A stretch of 64,000 bases of DNA, from contig NZ_JAGFNS010000040.1 in NCBI RefSeq assembly GCF_017592555.1, positions 1-64,000 of the forward strand. Reading direction: 5' to 3'. Within the stretch, counting starts at the first letter, position 1; each line of letters begins with the position of its first letter. Position numbers and translations under genes: made by a program. The stretch is from Actinoplanes flavus. Lineage in GTDB: Bacteria > Actinomycetota > Actinomycetes > Mycobacteriales > Micromonosporaceae. Positions 3,022 to 15,093 of the stretch are shown piece by piece. A model generated the notes under the pieces. The model searched no databases and was not told the DNA's origin. It saw only the letters and a list, made by a program, of their open reading frames with translations.

Positions 3022-3420
3022 TCAGCCGACGGTGCACCGGTTGTCGTTGATCCGGAACTCGGCCGGCCGCGGGCCCTTGACGTCGCCCGCGGCATGGAAT
3101 CCCACCGACACCGACTTCCCCGATAGCACGTCACTGTTGTAGGCGAGGCTCTTCGCGGTCACCTCCTGCCCGTCGACGGTGAAGGTCGCCTCCCATCCAC
3201 TGCGGAGGGTCTGCCCGGCCGGCAGCGCGAACCTCAGCGTCCAGCCGTACAGGGTGAGCCCACCGGTGTTGGTGATGGTGATCTGCCCGTTGAACGACCA
3301 CGAGTCGCCGTTGGTCACATAGCCGACATGACACACCGCGGGCTCCGCGGCGACCGCCGGCGCGGACGGCGTGAGCAGGGCCGCGGCCAGGCCGGCGACA
3401 ACCGCCATTGATCGATGCAT
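3022..3420 (-). CDS. Secreted stand-alone CBM2 (cellulose-binding) protein
   Basis: A 132-residue secreted protein. After a signal peptide (MAVVAGLAAALLTPSAPAVA) the whole mature chain is one carbohydrate-binding module of family 2: a Cys near each end (AVCHVGY and DNRCTVG, expected disulfide), SWSFNGQITITNTG, the aromatic LYGWTLRFALPAGQ segment and VGFHAAG. The Trp residues fit the cellulose/chitin-binding face of CBM2. Unusually there is no catalytic domain, so it would act as a free binding protein. ATG at 3420 follows a GGGAG site about 10 bases upstream. It is divergent from the AfsR-like gene, with 138 bases between starts. Confidence 0.85.
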   Translation of the reverse strand: MHRSMAVVAGLAAALLTPSAPAVAAEPAVCHVGYVTNGDSWSFNGQITITNTGGLTLYGWTLRFALPAGQTLRSGWEATFTVDGQEVTAKSLAYNSDVLSGKSVSVGFHAAGDVKGPRPAEFRINDNRCTVG

Positions 3421-3558
3421 GACGATGCAGCTCCCGTGCTTGTGGGATCGGTTCAGGTCCACCTAAGGTTCCTTGAGCAGGGTGGAGCACCCGACTGGAT
3501 CCTGACTGGACGATGGCTGGACGACACCGCTCCACCACCCTTTGCCGGGGGTGAGAGC

Positions 3559-6500
3559 GTGCGGATTCAAGTGCTGGGCCCGGTCCGCGCATGGCTTGGC
3601 GACGACCCGGTGGCACTCACCTCGGCGGGCCGGCGCGCCGTGCTGGGCCTGCTCGCGGTGGCCGGCGGACAGCCGCTGGGCCAGGCCGAGCTGATCGACG
3701 CGCTGTGGGGCGACCGGCCCCCGCCGAGCGCGGCCAACATCATCCAGACACACGTCAAGCACCTGCGCCGGCTTCTGGAACCCGGGCGGGCCTTCCGTTC
3801 GCACAGCGCCCGCCTCCCCCGCGTCGGCGACGGCTACGCCCTGCGGGTGTCCGAGGAGAGCCTGGACCTCCTGCGCTTCCGGCGACTGCTCGCCGACGCG
3901 ACCGCCGCGCGGCAGAACGGCGACCAGCGGACCGCCGCCGACCTGTCCGCCGAGGCGCTCGCGCAGTGGCAGGGCACACCGCTGATGGACGTGCCGATGC
4001 TGGCCGGCCATCCCAAGGTCCTGGCCCTCATCGAGGAGCGGCGGGCCGCCCTGGGCCGCTACGGCGAACTCATGATCATGCTGGGCGCGGTGTCCGAGGC
4101 GCTGCCGGCCCTGGAGGAGGCCGCGGCGGCCCAGCCGCTCGACGAGGCCGGGCAGGCCCGGCTGATCCGCGCCTATGCGGCGGCCGGGCGCCGGGCCAAG
4201 GCGTTCGCGACCTTTCATGACACGCGCCGGCTGCTCGCCGACGAGCTGGGCGTCGATCCCGGCCCGGAGCTGTCCGCCGCGCACGCGTCCCTGCTGCGCG
4301 ATCCCGGCGAGGCCGTCGCCGTTCCGGCGCCGCGGACCAACACCACAAACCCGCATCCGGTACGACCGGCGCCCGCCCAGCTACCGGCGGACGTACCGGG
4401 GTTCACCGGCCGCGACGGCGAACTCGCCGCACTGGACCGGCTGGTCACGGCCGGCGAGCAGACGGTCGTGACGGTGTCCGGCATGGCCGGCGTGGGCAAG
4501 ACGGCGCTGGCGGTGCGATGGGCGCACCGGGCCCGCTCCCGGTTCCCGGACGGCCAGCTGCACGTGAACCTGCGCGGCTACGACTCGGAACAGCCGATGA
4601 CGCCGGAGGACGCGCTCGCCGGGTTCCTCCGGGCCCTGGGCATGGCCGGCACCGACATCCCGGCCGGGCGGGACGAGCGCGCCGCCGCCTACCGGAGCCT
4701 GCTCGACGGCCGCCGCGTGCTCGTCGTGCTGGACAACGCCGTGTCGGTCGATCAGGTGTGGCCGCTGCTGCCCGGCACGGCGTCCTGCACGGTGGTGGTG
4801 ACCAGCCGGGACATGCTGCCGGGCCTGGTCGCCCGGCACGGCGCGGGCCGGCTCGTCGTGCCGCTGCTGCCCGCCGGGGAGGCGCTGGTCCTGATCACCC
4901 GGCTGATCGGCGACCGGGTGCGCGACGAGCCCGCGGCCGCGGCCGACCTGATCGGGCGGTGTGCGCACCTGCCGCTGGCGTTGCGGGTCGCCGCCGAACT
5001 GGCGATCGGGCGGCCGGAGACGCCGTTGCGGGACCTGGTGGCCGAACTCGCCGACGAGAGCCGCCGCCTGGAGTTGCTGAACGCCGGCGGCGACCCGCAG
5101 ACCGGGGTCCGCGCCGTCTTCTCCTGGTCCTACCGGCAGCTCTCCCCGGCCGCGGCGCGGGCCTTCCGGTTGCTCGGCCTGGTTCCCGGCCCGGACGTGG
5201 CGGGCTACGCGGTCGCCGCGTTGCTGGACACCGGCGTCGCCGAGGCCGGTGAGCTGCTGGAGGTGCTGGCCCGGGCCCATCTGGTCCAGCACGTGACGGC
5301 CGACCGCTACAGCCAGCACGACCTGCTCCGGGCGTACGCCATCGATCTTGGTTGGTCAGGGGTGGAGAGTGACCGGGCACGGGAGCGACTCGCCGACGCC
5401 ACCCTGTTCACCGCGACCGCCGCGATGGACACGCTCTATCCGGCCGAGCGGCACCGGCGGGTCCGCGCCGTCCGGCCGCGGTCGCCGATCCCGCCGGTCG
5501 GCGACGGCGCGGGCGCCCAGGCCTGGCTGGACCGGGAACGCGACAACCTGGTGGCGCTGGTGGCGCACGCGGCCGTCCACGATCGGCCCGCGCACGCCGT
5601 CGGTCTCACCCTCACGCTGCTGCGTTACCTGGAGAGCGGCGGCCACTACCCGGAGGCCGTCGTCATGCACGAGCACGCGGTGCGGGCCGCCCGGCTGACC
5701 GGGGACGCCGCCGCGGAGGCGCAACTGCTGACCAACCTCGCGGTCATGGACGTGCAGCAGGGCCACTACGAACGGGCGGAAACCGTGCTACGGCGCGCGG
5801 TCGAGCTGGCCCGGGCGTGCGGCGACCACGCCGTCCAGGCGCGGGCGCTGGGCAATCTCGGTCACGTCGACCAGTGGCAGGGCCGCTACGACGACGCGGC
5901 CGACGCCCTGCGCAAGGCACTGGAACTGTGCCGGCAGACCGGTGACCGGGCGGCCGAGGCGCGGGCGCTGGGCAACCTGGGCCAGGTGCTGCGGCGGCAG
6001 GGCCTCGACGAGCAGGCGGCGGCGTACCTGAGCGAATCGGTCCGGATCTGCCGCGACATCGACGATCCGGTCGGCGAGGGGTACGCCCTGGTCAGCCTCG
6101 GCGACATCGCCGCACGGCAGCGGGACAGCCGGCGCGCGGTCCGCGCACACCGCGAGGCCCTGGACGTCTTCCGCCGGACCAACGAACGCGCCGGCACCGC
6201 GCTGGCGCTCGACGGGCTCGGCGCGGCCACCCACGACGTCGTCTTCCTGCGCGAGGCGCTGGAGATCTTCCAGCAGCTCGGCGAACGGGCCGGCGAGGCC
6301 CGGGTCACCAACAGCCTGGGCGAGGCCCTCACCACCACCGGCCGGCCGGCGGACGGCCGGGAACGGCATCTGGCGGCGCTCACCCTGGCGACCGGCACCG
6401 GCGACCGGTACGAGTCGGCGCGGGCGCACGCCGGCCTGGCCCGCGCGGCCGAGATGCTCGGCGACCCGGACACCGCCGAGCAGCACCGCAACCAGGCGTG

Positions 6501-6564
6501 GACCGGTTACACCGAGATCGGCGCCCCGGAGGCCGAGGACATCCGCCGCCTCATCGACCGCTGA
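3559..6564 (+). CDS. AfsR/SARP-type regulator (BTAD, NB-ARC and TPR domains)
   Basis: A 1001-residue signal-integrating transcriptional activator. Order of domains: winged-helix DNA-binding domain (about residues 1-95, RIQVLGPVRAWLGDD...SAGRRAVLGLLA), bacterial transcriptional activation domain (about 95-245), NB-ARC ATPase (Walker A GMAGVGKTALAVRWA near residue 307, Walker B VLVVLDNA, RNBS-like VVVTSRD), and at least six tetratricopeptide repeats (about 700-980, recurrent ARALGNLGHV / ARALGNLGQV). GTG at 3559 is chosen because GGGGGTGAG precedes it and RIQVLGP is the canonical SARP beginning. AfsR homologs activate secondary metabolism, but no biosynthetic cluster lies next to it, so its targets are elsewhere or are local secreted proteins. 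Confidence 0.9.
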   Translation: MRIQVLGPVRAWLGDDPVALTSAGRRAVLGLLAVAGGQPLGQAELIDALWGDRPPPSAANIIQTHVKHLRRLLEPGRAFRSHSARLPRVGDGYALRVSEESLDLLRFRRLLADATAARQNGDQRTAADLSAEALAQWQGTPLMDVPMLAGHPKVLALIEERRAALGRYGELMIMLGAVSEALPALEEAAAAQPLDEAGQARLIRAYAAAGRRAKAFATFHDTRRLLADELGVDPGPELSAAHASLLRDPGEAVAVPAPRTNTTNPHPVRPAPAQLPADVPGFTGRDGELAALDRLVTAGEQTVVTVSGMAGVGKTALAVRWAHRARSRFPDGQLHVNLRGYDSEQPMTPEDALAGFLRALGMAGTDIPAGRDERAAAYRSLLDGRRVLVVLDNAVSVDQVWPLLPGTASCTVVVTSRDMLPGLVARHGAGRLVVPLLPAGEALVLITRLIGDRVRDEPAAAADLIGRCAHLPLALRVAAELAIGRPETPLRDLVAELADESRRLELLNAGGDPQTGVRAVFSWSYRQLSPAAARAFRLLGLVPGPDVAGYAVAALLDTGVAEAGELLEVLARAHLVQHVTADRYSQHDLLRAYAIDLGWSGVESDRARERLADATLFTATAAMDTLYPAERHRRVRAVRPRSPIPPVGDGAGAQAWLDRERDNLVALVAHAAVHDRPAHAVGLTLTLLRYLESGGHYPEAVVMHEHAVRAARLTGDAAAEAQLLTNLAVMDVQQGHYERAETVLRRAVELARACGDHAVQARALGNLGHVDQWQGRYDDAADALRKALELCRQTGDRAAEARALGNLGQVLRRQGLDEQAAAYLSESVRICRDIDDPVGEGYALVSLGDIAARQRDSRRAVRAHREALDVFRRTNERAGTALALDGLGAATHDVVFLREALEIFQQLGERAGEARVTNSLGEALTTTGRPADGRERHLAALTLATGTGDRYESARAHAGLARAAEMLGDPDTAEQHRNQAWTGYTEIGAPEAEDIRRLIDR

Positions 6565-9548: not shown

Positions 9549-9941
9549 ATGGAGTCCGCCGCCGAACTGTTCGCCTCCGCACGGGTGGCACGGCTCGCCA
9601 CCGTCAACGCCGACGGTGTCCCCCGCCTGGTTCCGATCGTCTTCGCGGTCACCGGCGACCTCATCCACACCGCGGTCGACGCCAAACCCAAACGCACCCG
9701 CCACCTGCGCCGGCTCGCCGACATCGCGGCGAACCCACGCGTGTGCGTGCTCGCCGACCACTACGACGACGACTGGTCGGCCCTGTGGTGGGCGCGCGCC
9801 GACGGCACCGCCCGCGTCCTCGACTCCTCCCCCGCCGGCCTGGCCGCGCTGACCGCCCGCTACCCGCAGTACCGCGACACCCCACCGCCCGGCCCGTTCC
9901 TGGAGATCACCGTGGACCGCTGGTCCGCCTGGCGCCCCTGA
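9549..9941 (+). CDS. PPOX-class (F420-dependent type) oxidoreductase
   Basis: A 130-residue split-barrel flavin- or F420-binding protein of the pyridoxamine 5'-phosphate oxidase-like class. It opens ELFASARVARLATVNADGVPRLVPIVF, the typical first strands (VARLATVNADG), followed by DAKPKRTRHLRRLADIAANPRVCVL and a terminal WSAWRP, which match the actinobacterial subgroup described as probable F420-dependent enzymes. Cofactor assignment comes from family resemblance, not from the sequence itself. The 3' end overlaps the convergent DUF4291 gene by 35 bases. Confidence 0.8.
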   Translation: MESAAELFASARVARLATVNADGVPRLVPIVFAVTGDLIHTAVDAKPKRTRHLRRLADIAANPRVCVLADHYDDDWSALWWARADGTARVLDSSPAGLAALTARYPQYRDTPPPGPFLEITVDRWSAWRP

Positions 9942-10539
9942 CCGGCGGCGAAACCCCCACGTCAAAGTTGATTTGCGGGTACGGGTAGAGCCGTTCTGCC
10001 GGGAGAAGCGCCGTCGCCGTGTCGACGTCACGGGCGTCGAGGTGGCCCCGGATGCGGCGCACCAGTGGGGTCACGTCGGTGATCTCTGTGATCCACTCGT
10101 CGACGTAGAGCGGCACCGCCGCACCGCCGAGGCCGAGTTGCAGGGAACGGTAGGGCAGCTCACGCAGGTGCAGATCACGTTCCGGGTCCCACTGCACCCG
10201 GGTCGGGGCGCGTTTGAGCGCACGCTGCCAGGTGGCCCGGTCAGGGTGGATGCCGCGCTTGTAACCGCTGAGGACCGCGTTGGCGAGCGCCCATTCGAAG
10301 CCGGTCCGAGTGATCGAGATGGCAAGGACGTGTTCCTGGCCGGGTTTGGTGGCCCAGCCACAGCGATACATCATCCACAGGAACGACGGTTTGATCCAGG
10401 TCATCCGATCCCGCTTGAACGGCGGCACGAACCGTCCCGCGCTGACGGCCGGCACGGCGATCCTCGCTGAGTAGGCCTGATAGACGGTGATCGTGCTGTC
10501 GTCGTACATCGCTCGGATCTCGTGTTTCACGCCGCCCAT
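9907..10539 (-). CDS. DUF4291 protein
   Basis: A 210-residue cytoplasmic protein of the DUF4291 family, recognised from its highly conserved beginning (HEIRAMYDDSTITVYQAYS) and the FKRDRMTWIKPSFLWMMYR block, then CGWATKPGQEHVLAI. Function is unknown. ATG at 10539 is chosen because the conserved region starts right after it; the upstream frame is Arg-rich and not protein-like. It stands between the PPOX gene and the old (trailer) end of the CRISPR array. I see no evidence that it works with the array. Confidence 0.85.
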   Translation of the reverse strand: MGGVKHEIRAMYDDSTITVYQAYSARIAVPAVSAGRFVPPFKRDRMTWIKPSFLWMMYRCGWATKPGQEHVLAISITRTGFEWALANAVLSGYKRGIHPDRATWQRALKRAPTRVQWDPERDLHLRELPYRSLQLGLGGAAVPLYVDEWITEITDVTPLVRRIRGHLDARDVDTATALLPAERLYPYPQINFDVGVSPPVRGARRTSGPR

Positions 10540-10599
10540 GGTCGAGGTTCGGCGCCGCCGGCCGCGACCGGATTTCCGGCCGGCACGGCTGGCAGCACG

Positions 10600-10778
10600 C
10601 CGGTCAGGGTGCGGGTCCGCCCAGGTTCCTGCCGTAGCCCGGGCGGAGGATCGCGTCGGTGAACGTGTCGAGCAGTCGCCCCGTCGAAGGCACCGAAGCT
10701 GACAGGTTGGGTGGGCCACCGACGGGCGTCGCTAACGGGGTCGTAACCTCCGTTGACGAGGATCTCGACGCTGATCAT
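10600..10778 (-). pseudogene. Possible frameshifted small reading frame at the CRISPR trailer end
   Basis: On the minus strand, ATG at 10778, inside the first degenerate CRISPR repeat, opens MISVEILVNGGYDPVSD followed by RRWPTQPVSFGAFDG. At a GGGG run near 10682 the frame loses sense, but shifting by one base gives RLLDTFTDAILRPGYGRN and a stop near 10614. Together they would make one plausible peptide of about 55 residues. I do not recognise a family. It may be a decayed gene or chance; confidence is low. Confidence 0.25.
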
Positions 10779-11563
10779 CCCCGCATGCGCGGGGATCAGC
10801 CCTGGTCAGCGACCGCGGCAAGTAGGGCCTGCGGATCATCCCCGCGTGCGCAGGGAGCAGGTAGCCCACGTGTCATCGTAGCCCTTACCGTACGGATCAT
10901 CCCCGCGTATGCAGGGAGCAGATCCAGCCGAGCTCTTCCGTCTTTGCTGTGCCCGGCTCATCCCGCGTGCACGGGAAGCAGGTGATGTCGAGTTCATCGG
11001 CGGCGGACACGTCGGGATCATCCCCGCGTGCGCGGGGAGCAGTTGTCGCCGCGGTACGTGCGCTGCGTCCACTCGGGATCATCCCCGCGTGCGCGGGGAG
11101 CAGACGAGGTGCGTTGCTGAAATGTGCGCATGTGGAGGATCATCTCCGCGTGCGCGGGGAGCAGTTGGCCACCTCGGTCGCCGCCCGCGCTCACGCCGGA
11201 TCATCCCCGCGTGCGCGGGGAGCAGGAGCTAGGCGCCTACTGCCTGTTCCGGTACGTCGGATCATCCCCGCGTGCGCGGGGAGCAGAGCCACTTGAGCCA
11301 CCGCAGGATGTCCAGCACCGGATCATCCCCGCGTGCGCGGGGAGCAGCGTGGTCGTCTCCGGTCCCGTCACGGATGTCGCGGATCATCCCCGCGTGCGCG
11401 GGGAGCAGGAGACCAAGGCCGGCGCGATGCACGCGGCGCAGGGATCATCCCCGCGTGCGCGGGGAGCAGACCTGCTGATAGCCGCCCTGAATGGTGTACG
11501 GCGGATCATCCCCGCGTGCGCGGGGAGCAGACGCCCGTAAGATCGGCGCGGCTTCGGAACTTC
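10772..11563 (-). CRISPR. CRISPR block A: oldest repeats (ATCATCC/GTGCG type)
   Basis: Contains 13 repeats beginning at 10772, 10833, 10894, 10955, 11015, 11076, 11137, 11198, 11259, 11320, 11381, 11442 and 11503, and their 13 spacers. The first four repeats are degenerate: repeat 1 has CTGATC/GATCAG ends that make it a near-complete palindrome, repeats 2 and 3 have CAGGGAGCAG, and repeat 4 has lost one C and is 27 bases. Repeat 7 has ATCTCC. The rest share GGATCATC on the left arm, which gives a U-A pair at the stem base in the minus-strand RNA. Confidence 0.93.
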
Positions 11564-11593
11564 GGATTATCCCCGCGTGCGCGGGGGTGATCC
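11564..11593. repeat. Hybrid CRISPR repeat 1 (two left halves joined, 30 bases)
   Basis: The left 16 bases (GGATTATCCCCGCGTG) are the left part of a block A repeat. The remaining 14 (CGCGGGGGTGATCC) are the reverse complement of the left part of a block B repeat. It is therefore head-to-head and 2 bases longer than normal. It marks the left breakpoint of the inverted block. Confidence 0.95.
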
Positions 11594-12054
11594 TTCCCTT
11601 CGGTAGGCCCTCAGCGCTGGCTTGGTCTGCTCCCCGCGCACGCGGGGGTGATCCGAAGTGGCTCACCGCCAAGATCGACGCGCGTGCCTGCTCCCCGCGC
11701 ACGCGGGGGTGATCTCGCTGCCAATACCGCTTCACCGTCTTAGGGTCGCTGCTCCCCGCGCACGCGGGGGTGACCCCGCCTCGATGCGTGGGCCCCATTC
11801 GCCTTCGGCCTGCTCCCCGCGCACGCGGGGGTGATCCGTACTCCTGCAAACGCCGGGAGGCGCAGGAAGCCCTGCTCCCCGCGCACGCGGGGGTGATCCG
11901 GTCGTCTTCCAGCTCGCGCACGCTCCGGCCTGCTGCTCCCCGCGCACGCGGGGGTGATCCCACGGCGACGTCGGACTCGTCGGCGACGTCCGGCTGCTCC
12001 CCGCGCACGCGGGGGTGATCCCACGATGGCCGTGGTCCGCGCCCGCGATGCTGC
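11594..12054 (+). CRISPR. CRISPR block B: inverted block, 7 repeats and 8 spacers
   Basis: Repeats at 11627, 11688, 11749, 11810, 11872, 11933 and 11994 read CTGCTCCCCGCGCACG-CGGGGGTGATCC on the plus strand, the reverse of every other repeat in the array. All spacers are 33 bases except the one at 11838-11871 (34). Repeat 11688 ends in GATCT and 11749 in GACCC. If the array is transcribed from its right-hand leader, this block produces RNA with the handle on the wrong side of the stem. Its spacers are therefore expected to be non-functional unless the block is also transcribed from the left. Confidence 0.96.
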
Positions 12055-12080
12055 CTGCTCCCCGCGTGCGCGGGGAGCAG
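12055..12080. repeat. Hybrid CRISPR repeat 2 (two right halves joined, 26 bases)
   Basis: CTGCTCCCCGCG (12 bases, reverse complement of a right arm) is fused to TGCGCGGGGAGCAG (14 bases, right part). It is 2 bases shorter than normal, exactly balancing the 30-base hybrid at 11564-11593. It marks the right breakpoint of the inverted block. Confidence 0.95.
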
Positions 12081-12995
12081 GAGATACGCCCATGAGTGAG
12101 GCAATGCAGCGCCGGATCACCCCCGCGTGCGCGGGGAGCAGTTCGTCGAGAGCGAGCTGCTCATCGGCACCCGGGGATCACCCCCGCGTACGCGGGGAGC
12201 AGATCGACCCGCGGGCGGCGTAGAGGTCGTTGTACGGATCACCCCCGCGTACGCGGGGAGCAGGGGTAGACGCCGCCGACGGGAATGTTCGTGGCGGGAT
12301 CACCCCCGCGTACGCGGGGAGCAGGTCCAACCCCACGAGCGCGAGGCGATGCGACGGGGATCACCCCCGCGTACGCGGGGAGCAGCACCACGGTAACTCT
12401 CGCCCCTGGTGCGACCTAGGATCACCCCCGCGTACGCGGGGAGCAGCAGGTCCCGTCATGGTCAGTCCCCCTCCAGCCCGGATCACCCCCGCGTACGCGG
12501 GGAGCAGGGACCGCGTTTGGTGACGACCGGGATTGAACAGGGATCACCCCCGCGTACGCGGGGAGCAGGCCGGCCTCGCCGACTCGACGGTCACGCTGGA
12601 GGGATCACCCCCGCGTACGCGGGGAGCAGCTGAACACCACCGACCGCGCGGCCGGCTTCACCGGATCACCCCCGCGTACGCGGGGAGCAGAAGTCGGAAC
12701 TCGGAAACGCTTCCGACTTTTCAGGATCACCCCCGCGTACGCGGGGAGCAGGATCGCCTCGCGGGTCTGGGCCACGCTGGCGACGGATCACCCCCGCGTA
12801 CGCGGGGAGCAGGATCTGGCACCAGGTCGGCGAGACGACATTCAGGGATCACCCCCGCGTACGCGGGGAGCAGGGATGCGTGATCGAGCGCGAAGACCAG
12901 TACCGAGGATCACCCCCGCGTACGCGGGGAGCAGCGTGGGATAGCCGCCGCTGCCGTGGTTGCAGCGGGATCACCCCCGCGTACGCGGGGAGCAG
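12081..12995 (-). CRISPR. CRISPR block C: youngest repeats (ATCACCC/GTACG type)
   Basis: Fifteen repeats start at 12114, 12175, 12236, 12297, 12358, 12419, 12480, 12541, 12602, 12663, 12724, 12785, 12846, 12907 and 12968. The first (12114) still has GTGCG in the loop; the other fourteen all have GTACG and are identical to each other. That near-perfect uniformity, compared with the degenerate left end, supports the right side as leader-proximal. The spacer at 12691-12723 contains a perfect inverted repeat (AAGTCGGAA ... TTCCGACTT). Confidence 0.95.
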
Positions 12996-13095
12996 GCTAA
13001 TCTACCTGCGTTGCTATAGATCAACATCGCCGATTTCATTCACTCGGTTCTCCTGCACGATCTCAGGTGAGGCTGGGTCTGAGCGCCGATGAAAA
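12996..13095 (-). promoter_or_regulatory. Probable CRISPR leader
   Basis: Directly right of the last perfect repeat the sequence becomes clearly less GC-rich (for example TTGCTATAGATCAAC near 13010 and GATTTCATTCACTC near 13033), as leaders usually are. Placement rests on repeat polarity and on the degeneration of the opposite end. A promoter cannot be fixed by eye. The remaining gap to the helicase gene (13096-13440) shows no convincing gene; the 103-codon frame there lacks protein character. Confidence 0.55.
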
Positions 13096-13440
13096 GTTCG
13101 ATGCCGGCTACTGAGGGCGATGCCTGATCACGGCTGGCCATGCCCCTCGCCGGATACGAATTTCCACTTCGGCTTGAGTTCGAACACTACCCGGAACTTT
13201 CAGGGAGACGGCCGAAGTGCCTCCGATTTCGGAGACGAGCAGCACCCCGATGGCAGGCCGGCGTGGTCGAGCAGAGGACCGAGCCCTAAGACAGGATCGT
13301 GGTGCTTGGCGGCCCAGGGCGGGCGCCTCGCCGCCGCTATGCCCGATGTGCGGGTTCCGAGTCCCATAGCGGACGCCGGGGCTGGGCCGGCTTCACCCCG
13401 TACCGATGGGTCGGGGTTTGATCTGGAATAGGGTTTGGGC

Positions 13441-15093
13441 ATGGAAACTGATCCGTCTGAGTCCGAAGCGGGTTTCGCCGGACTGGGGTTGCGGGCGGAA
13501 CTGCTCCGTGCGTTGACCAATCTGGGCTATGAGGAACCGACACCGATCCAGCAGGGGGCGATCCCGCCGCTGATCGAGGGGCACGACCTGGTCGGTCAGG
13601 CCGCCACCGGCACGGGTAAGACCGCCGCCTTCGCGCTGCCCCTGTTGCAGGGGCTCAAGCCCGCCGGGCGGGACGCCGGGCCGTCGGCGCTGGTGCTGGT
13701 GCCGACCCGGGAGCTGGCCGAGCAGGTGTCGCAGGCGGTCCACCGGTACGGCCGTGACCTGGGGGTGCGGGTGCTGCCGGTGTACGGCGGACAGCCGATC
13801 GGCCGCCAGTTGCAGGTGCTGAACCGTGGGGTGGACGTGGTCGTCGGCACGCCGGGTCGGGTGCTGGACCACATCGAGCGGGAGACGCTGCGGCTCGGCG
13901 ACATCCGTACCGTGGTGCTGGACGAGGCCGACGAGATGCTCGACATGGGGTTCGCCGAGGACATCGAGGCGATCCTGGCCGAGACGCCGGAATCCCGCCA
14001 GACGGTGTTGTTCTCCGCGACGATGCCGCCCCGCATCGACGGCATCGCCCGCCGTCATCTGCGGAACCCGACGCGGATCACGATGGGCCGCAAGGCGGTC
14101 GAACCGGGTGAGCTGCCGCTGGTCCGGCAGAGCGCCTACGTCGTGGCGCGGGCGCACCGGGCGGCCGCGCTGGGCCGGATCCTGGATGTGGAGACGCCGA
14201 CGGCGGCGATCGTCTTCTGCCGGACCCGGGAGGAGGTCGACCAGGTCACCGAGACGCTGAACGGGCGCGGCTACCGGGCGGAGGCGCTGCACGGCGGCAT
14301 GAGCCAGGACCAGCGCGACCGGGTGATGGGCCGGCTGCGGGGCGGCAGCACCGAGTTGCTGGTGGCCACCGACGTGGCGGCGCGCGGGCTGGACGTCGAG
14401 CAGCTGACCCACGTGATCAACTTCAACGTGCCGGTGGCGCCGGAGGCCTATGTGCACCGGATCGGCCGGGTCGGGCGGGCCGGGCGGGAGGGTTCCGCGA
14501 TCACCCTGGCGGAGCCGCGTGAGCAGCGGATGCTCAAGGCGATCGAGCGGCTCACCGGGCAGCGGATCACCCTGGAGAAGCTGCCGACGGTGACCGATCT
14601 GCGGGCCCGGCGGCTGGAGGTGACGCGTACCGCGTTGCAGGCCAGCCTGGAGACCGACGATCTGGAGCGGTTCCGGGTGGTGCTGGATTCGCTGACCGAC
14701 GAGTTCGACGTCGAGGACGTGGCGCTGGCCGCGGTGAAGCTGCTGCACGAGGCGGCCGGTGGTGACCGTGACGAGGACGAGATCCCGACGCCGTCGCTGC
14801 CGCCGGAGGGCCGCCGGGCGGCGGCCCGCGACAACCGGGCGCCCGGCGGAAAGGTGGCCCGGCTGTTCTTCGGGATCGGCCGCCGGGCCGGGGTCCGCCC
14901 GCAGGATCTGGTCGGGGCGATCGCCGGTGAGGCCGGGCTGCACTCGCGGGACATCGGCGCGATTCAGATCACCGACCGGTTCTCGCTGGTGGAGGTGCCG
15001 GAGCCGGCCGCGGACCGGGTGATCGCGGCGATGCAGCGGGCCACCATCCGGGGCCGGCGCCCGACGGTCCGCCGGGAGCGGTTCGCCCGCTGA
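13441..15093 (+). CDS. DEAD-box ATP-dependent RNA helicase with DbpA-type RNA-binding domain
   Basis: A 550-residue RNA helicase. Q motif EEPTPIQQGAIPPLI, Walker A ATGTGKT (about residue 58), PTRELAEQ, TPGRVLD, DEAD box LDEADEMLDMGF (about 160), SAT motif FSATMP, VATDVAARGLD and HRIGRVGRAGREG are all present in order. The C-terminal ~75 residues (RLFFGIGRRAGVRPQDLVGAI ... DRFSLVEVPE) are a DbpA-type RNA-binding domain, which in E. coli directs binding to 23S rRNA. Such proteins (DeaD/CsdA/DbpA group) act in ribosome assembly and RNA turnover, often in the cold. ATG at 13441 is taken; TTG at 13435 is also in frame. It is monocistronic. Confidence 0.93.
   Translation: METDPSESEAGFAGLGLRAELLRALTNLGYEEPTPIQQGAIPPLIEGHDLVGQAATGTGKTAAFALPLLQGLKPAGRDAGPSALVLVPTRELAEQVSQAVHRYGRDLGVRVLPVYGGQPIGRQLQVLNRGVDVVVGTPGRVLDHIERETLRLGDIRTVVLDEADEMLDMGFAEDIEAILAETPESRQTVLFSATMPPRIDGIARRHLRNPTRITMGRKAVEPGELPLVRQSAYVVARAHRAAALGRILDVETPTAAIVFCRTREEVDQVTETLNGRGYRAEALHGGMSQDQRDRVMGRLRGGSTELLVATDVAARGLDVEQLTHVINFNVPVAPEAYVHRIGRVGRAGREGSAITLAEPREQRMLKAIERLTGQRITLEKLPTVTDLRARRLEVTRTALQASLETDDLERFRVVLDSLTDEFDVEDVALAAVKLLHEAAGGDRDEDEIPTPSLPPEGRRAAARDNRAPGGKVARLFFGIGRRAGVRPQDLVGAIAGEAGLHSRDIGAIQITDRFSLVEVPEPAADRVIAAMQRATIRGRRPTVRRERFAR

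Follow-up and report, generated by a model that had tools for sequence, protein, structure and literature searches.

The window, the whole stretch of 64,000 nt analyzed here from the genome of Actinoplanes flavus, contains a type I-E-like CRISPR array at 10772-12995, which is composed of 37 repeat units and 36 spacers. At 2311-2946, a gene carries a phospholipase A2 domain of the prokaryotic type (PF09056, E 3.6e-35), and a gene for a large regulator with BTAD, NB-ARC and TPR domains is present at 3415-6564. A DUF4291 gene (9907-10719) adjoins the array on its trailer side. The components of the array and its leader are as follows.

10772..11563, minus strand: left, trailer-side block; 13 repeats and 13 spacers, with the crRNA sense on the minus strand
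11564..11593, no strand: hybrid repeat A, 30 nt, GGATTATCCCCGCGTGCGCGGGGGTGATCC; two 3' halves, outward-facing
11594..12054, plus strand: inverted block; 7 repeats and 8 spacers (33-34 nt each), lying antisense to the leader
12055..12080, no strand: hybrid repeat B, 26 nt, CTGCTCCCCGCGTGCGCGGGGAGCAG; two 5' halves, outward-facing
12081..12995, minus strand: right, leader-side block; 15 spacers and 15 repeats
12996..13046 (limits approximate), minus strand: leader; conserved core adjoining the first repeat, common to the leader ends of congeners' arrays

The 37 repeat units are thus 13 left repeats, hybrid A, seven reversed repeats, hybrid B and 15 right repeats. All spacers are 33 nt in length except one of 34 nt (11838-11871). 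The geometry is that of type I-E arrays, in which palindromic repeats of ~28-29 nt alternate with spacers of 32-33 nt. On the plus strand, the flank repeats (13 left, 15 right) read GGATCA[T/C]CCCCGCGT[G/A]CGCGGGGAGCAG or near variants. The outer four of the left block are variant or degenerate; the fourth, at ~10955, is degenerate and was read by eye. The repeats of the inverted block are of the GTGATCC / CA-loop type on the plus strand, with a single substitution in two of them, and start, as reverse complements, at 11627, 11688, 11749, 11810, 11872, 11933 and 11994. An earlier reading of the sequence alone had placed seven repeats and eight spacers at 11594-12054 in the orientation opposite to both flanks, and its coordinates and base counts are exact. 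Seven consecutive reversed 28-mers with spacers of 33-34 nt cannot be the product of chance.

The sequence-only reading had also observed that the two hybrids, 30 and 26 nt, sum to 56 nt, the length of two normal repeats, and a recount agrees. All pairs of breakpoints in 11560-11599 and 12045-12089 were re-inverted and scored by the number of canonical repeats in 11501-12150. The number rose from two to 11 at eight breakpoint pairs, from 11580/12066 to 11587/12059, and these eight equivalent pairs yield one identical re-inverted sequence. The eight-fold ambiguity arises because the 7-bp arm CGCGGGG is common to both repeats in inverted orientation. The left breakpoint is within CGCGGGG of hybrid A (11580-11586) and the right breakpoint is within CCCCGCG of hybrid B (12060-12066). 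Offset 16 of the left repeat and offset 14 of the right one, proposed earlier as the points of re-inversion, are right by this test, and the exhaustive comparison supports a single flip with both breakpoints in repeat palindromes. In the re-inverted array, the 35 listed repeats are spaced 61 nt apart except for one 62-nt step, which corresponds to the 34-nt spacer, and one 121-nt step, which spans the degenerate repeat; the outermost repeat (10772) falls outside the repeat pattern of the script. Two reciprocal junctions are resolved by a single re-inversion, as in an in-place inversion.

Judged from the sequence of a draft assembly of 94 contigs, the flip is very probably genuine and in place, the result of one inversion of a uniform type I-E-like array. 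It is quite improbable that the assembler, or chimeric molecules in the library, such as those from whole-genome amplification, joined the block backwards. The draft state of the genome and the palindromic repeats make such an error conceivable, and the flip is known from the assembly alone. Array drawings in the literature have been reversed in error before: parts of Sulfolobus arrays were "inadvertently inverted" in one paper and corrected later, according to the available part of a review (PMC4390879). At the junctions here, however, identity between a normal repeat and a reversed one extends over just 7 bp, and their loops differ (TG vs. CA). With an overlap of 7 bp, usual k-mer assembly should not create the hybrids from normal reads, and real or chimeric molecules are required. 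Chimeras, in turn, would need to have generated two reciprocal hybrids that fit one exchange.

The polarity of the array is indicated by its leader. The leader core motif, at 13034 on the minus strand, is present in a single copy in the window. Among the best 40 matches, the right array end including the first repeat matches nine array ends in 8 of 13 congener loci, with 75-82% identity over 57-95 bases. Without the repeat, the leader finds at best a modest match (77.6% over 49 bases, E 1e-4), followed by weaker ones (E 0.001 and 0.017). The left flank without repeats reached E 0.064 at best against the congener loci. In the repeat-anchored alignment of ten leaders, AGTGAA, AAA and TTGATCT show little or no variation, and GCAGGT is almost invariant. 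In one congener (G031), such a leader is directly downstream of cas3-cse1-cse2-cas7-cas5-cas6-cas1-cas2. This kinship with a leader beside type I-E cas genes indicates that the array here is of type I-E; its youngest repeat has the leader on its upstream side, the arrangement of arrays that adjoin I-E cas genes. Because the leader is at the right end, transcription should run leftward, and the flipped block is antisense to it. In another congener (G008), the array adjoining a homologous DEAD-box helicase gene (72% identity) has a uniform orientation, as parsed for 25 repeats where 26 exact repeats were counted.

The repeat variants form strata along the array. The left block carries the GGATCAT/GTGC type. 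The flipped block and the next repeat (12114, the first of the right block) carry GGATCAC/GTGC, and the remaining 14 repeats, nearest to the leader, carry GGATCAC/GTAC. The block shares the intermediate type with its neighbor at 12114 and is thus a native stratum of middle age, in place. The change from GGATCAT to GGATCAC sits precisely at the left breakpoint, which a single inversion does not demand. Insertion in reverse of a block from another array, instead of a flip in place, is very improbable. A possible parallel to it is found in a congener (G015, locus L055 on contig C118), where an ATGATCC array includes, at 782-1274, six reversed repeats as a block. Their type is different, mostly GTGTTCC, and the block has an A-like hybrid on one side but lacks a B hybrid on the other. 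Here, in contrast, the block repeats have the intermediate type of their neighbor and the two hybrid lengths total exactly two repeats. There is also no second array of this repeat in the genome with up to three mismatches; outside the array, only one isolated place was found (contig C12, three mismatches), and no donor array. The un-inverted order of the flipped spacers was found in none of the 90 fetched loci, from collections that hold one genome per species. When the 36 spacers were compared with these loci, the top 20 matches were 14-24 nt long and were judged to be due to chance.

In-place inversion can be outlined as follows. A uniformly oriented type I-E-like array would have undergone one inversion, ~473-487 bp long. 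Being almost identical to its reverse complement, the repeat core CCCCGCG-TG-CGCGGGG could let repeats of one orientation act as inverted partners. The pairing repeats, which would start at 11564 and 12053 in the re-inverted array, would align over 8 bp (TCCCCGCG), a two-base mismatch (TG vs. CA) and 7 bp (CGCGGGG). Both hybrids would have arisen simultaneously from a single reciprocal exchange within the 7-bp arm. By this reasoning, both hybrids are predicted to have TG as loop bases, and both do. The exchange may have proceeded by crossover, by strand annealing, or by reciprocal template switching at a replication fork.

The search for Cas1, Cas6e and Cas7e, the three cas families examined in the own genome, returned no match, although the genome is listed as 100% complete. 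Exact matches to the repeat are present in 8 of the 67 genomes of the genus, including the own genome. Of the other seven, five encode both Cas6e and Cas7e, and in two neither was found. This places the array among cas-less ones of I-E type and not among working systems. Arrays left behind after their cas genes were lost are known; the part of PMC3119063 available describes a residual array without cas genes in a Haloquadratum strain.

Transcripts from the leader would carry the eight flipped spacers as reverse complements; their 5' handle would be wrong, and so would the side of the PAM. The correct handle and PAM side are required for working guides in type I-E systems, and the flipped spacers would therefore be expected to fail as guides. 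The repeat core folds in the antisense strand too (-13.1 vs. -13.9 kcal/mol), and the hairpins of the hybrids are stronger (A, -23.6 on the plus strand and -15.7 on the minus strand; B, -23.7 on the plus strand). From these foldings, guide failure should come from the handle and the PAM side, not from hairpin loss. The earlier suggestion that transcripts of the flipped block carry the handle on the wrong side, perhaps silencing eight memories, stands as to the antisense position relative to the leader. It does not stand as to live silencing, given that Cas1, Cas6e and Cas7e were not found. With these proteins undetected, the flip is probably neutral here and the whole array probably idle. The flipped spacers, and likely all 36, are probably idle unless the enzymes act in trans or sit in unassembled DNA.

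None of the eight flipped spacers matched viral contigs when the first 32 bases were searched with every sixth position free. Within the window, the longest self-match of a spacer was one of 23 nt with 87% identity. In a BLAST comparison with phages, the whole array matched 55 records, with a best E of 9e-12 among the 30 listed. This best match was rejected as a spacer target; the record, MT835722.1 (locus L100), is an unverified phage contig from human faeces and carries its own I-E-like array at 13348-14825. That array, in which at least 22 repeat cores follow each other every 61-62 nt, is either phage-borne or part of a bacterial contig misfiled. One of the matches to Streptomyces phage ZL12 spans two palindromic cores 49 nt apart, and, the best match aside, the single-piece phage matches listed had E values of 0.06 or higher. 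Against plasmids, the whole array matched 331 records, 30 of them listed, which were presumed to be other arrays.

The hybrid A pattern was found in 48 stretches among 84,980 species genomes. By record title, 47 of them are actinobacterial, including Actinoplanes lutulentus (L035) and A. sandaracinus (L029), and one is a Flavobacteriales MAG. The A pattern misses variants, including the A hybrid of the window itself (GGATTAT), and the B pattern is restricted to 5' halves that end in TGCT. The 49 A places labelled consist of 13 orientation switches, 24 one-sided places and 12 isolated places. A switch is here defined as a place flanked on both sides by one or more diverging repeats, and three of the 13 have at least two on both sides. 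Closure by a B hybrid in the same array was seen, by eye, in one of the 13 switches, a count which may be too low as it was judged from the repeats around each A hybrid, in part up to six on either side.

The closed case is a second complete flip, in Brevibacterium album DSM 18261 (L041), with a Cas3 homologue in the same locus. There, a 30-nt A-type hybrid is followed by one reversed repeat with two spacers and a 26-nt B-type hybrid, and one inversion turns all the repeats to 28 nt. The re-inverted left repeat has the loop GA, in contrast to TC in the 42 exact repeats of the locus, giving 16 bp of perfect inverted homology. Among 300 genomes of the family, A hybrids are present in eight and B hybrids in two (the own genome and G031); by coordinates, seven of the eight A-hybrid genomes represent loci already in the species-genome scan. 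Clear homologues of the cas genes of G031 are present in 3 of the 48 A loci (up to 8 kb each), with a weak fourth match in L025. The leader core of the genus was found in 0 of 56 A-hybrid loci, including those bearing cas genes, and its absence is uninformative.

Some of these places have other arrangements. In Streptomyces adustus (L049, 2588), hybrid A is within an otherwise one-way array. An inversion does not account for it; local copying within a hairpin, with one arm of the palindrome as the template for its partner, would. This case argues against taking every A hybrid as an inversion. At L024, L035, L051 and nine more A places, which together make up the 13 switches without L041, divergent arrays are seen, with outward repeats on either side of one hybrid A and only repeats and spacers in between. 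Paired leader-inward arrays are present ~3 kb apart in G052, and around cas genes in G031 and G048. Deletion between palindromic repeats could leave a scar of the divergent-array kind. In G031, which is assembled in two contigs, a B hybrid joins two converging arrays (L064, 1370; C1:7310165), and an A hybrid is in a small array (L065, 2287; C1:7934779), 0.62 Mb from B. A large inversion between the two arrays is possible in G031. Its right flanks were located in 24 genomes of the genus, G031 included, and the flank beside B is patchy. In G053, one piece of the B flank (73%) is ~0.2 Mb from the other flank and another, matching weakly (68%), is ~0.03 Mb from it; in G027 the two flanks are on different contigs.

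Frequent flipping of blocks between palindromic repeats, toggling memories in the population, has hardly any probability as the explanation for the block in A. flavus. The hybrids retain inverted pairing arms, by which re-inversion is possible, and flips or orientation switches recur in other genomes. But Cas1, Cas6e and Cas7e are undetected, the pairing tract is just 7 bp, and no site-specific recombinase was found among the ten neighboring proteins by the Pfam scan, in which three matched no family. The exact E. coli A hybrid, used as a single query, was found in 0 of 5,426 E. coli genomes, where the canonical E. coli repeat as the control was found in at least 34,949 places in at least 4,158 genomes. 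In gut microbiome arrays compared within lineages, internal rearrangements affect 3.6% of array pairs and spacer inversions, at less than 0.01%, are virtually absent, according to the part of PMC11307328 available.

A broader proposal than the single in-place inversion is offered tentatively and is itself rather doubtful. The palindromic cores of I-E repeats might be a standing, recurrent route of orientation switching in actinobacterial arrays. Within an array, it would flip blocks, with eight spacers here and two in B. album. Between the two leader-inward arrays on either side of I-E loci, it would delete leaders and cas genes, leaving divergent arrays with one hybrid. If this is true, the orientation of an array would be a changeable feature of CRISPR memory that can in part be reversed.

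The order and orientation of spacers serve as a clock and a sign of polarity, and one orientation per array is normally assumed. A clean one-step inversion indicates that palindromic repeats are able to act as inverted partners. Such a flip would be a way of silencing memories without losing them. The pair of 30-nt and 26-nt hybrid repeats is a simple signature for counting flips across genomes.

No published description of such a flip was recognized among the papers listed in full-text searches of the literature, mostly of open-access papers. The sequence-only reading, which knew of no described case, holds in so far as no paper was recognized; in sequence data, the flip is not unique, since B. 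album is a second complete case and single orientation switches are present besides. Large-scale chromosome inversions in Thermotogales are reportedly coupled with CRISPR sequences, by the title of an article of DeBoy et al. in 2006 (J Bacteriol), which is possible prior art. The likeness is the coupling of inversions with CRISPR; those are, by the title, chromosome-scale, whereas the inversion here is of a block within one array. The parts available of PMC6113626, PMC7820667, PMC3704272, PMC5576922, PMC4084955, PMC3630104, PMC4869251, PMC3718332, PMC8549365, PMC4390879 and PMC10883916 describe no natural flip of this kind. The words "inversion" and "inverted" do not occur in the corresponding parts of PMC8047081 and PMC8616872.

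The array shares with type I-E arrays the 28-nt palindromic repeats, the 33-nt spacers and the leader, which is common to the cas-linked array of G031. It differs from them in the reversed internal block and in that Cas1, Cas6e and Cas7e are undetected. Bacterial genomes undergo template switching as well as inversions between short inverted repeats. The flip resembles such inversions in the short inverted homology at both ends and in the reciprocal junctions, but here the CRISPR repeat itself supplies the homology. Recombination between repeats deletes and duplicates spacers, as reviewed in PMC8047081, in the part available. In common with those events, repeat recombination or misalignment alters the array in one step. 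Direct repeats cause spacers to be lost or doubled there, whereas the palindromic arms act here as inverted repeats and no spacer is lost. The rearrangement is real, clean and uncommon. It belongs to the repeat-mediated rearrangements of arrays, and its functional importance in this genome is modest. The closest counterpart is the flip in B. album, which has the same pair of A and B hybrids, but is smaller and lies beside a Cas3 homologue.
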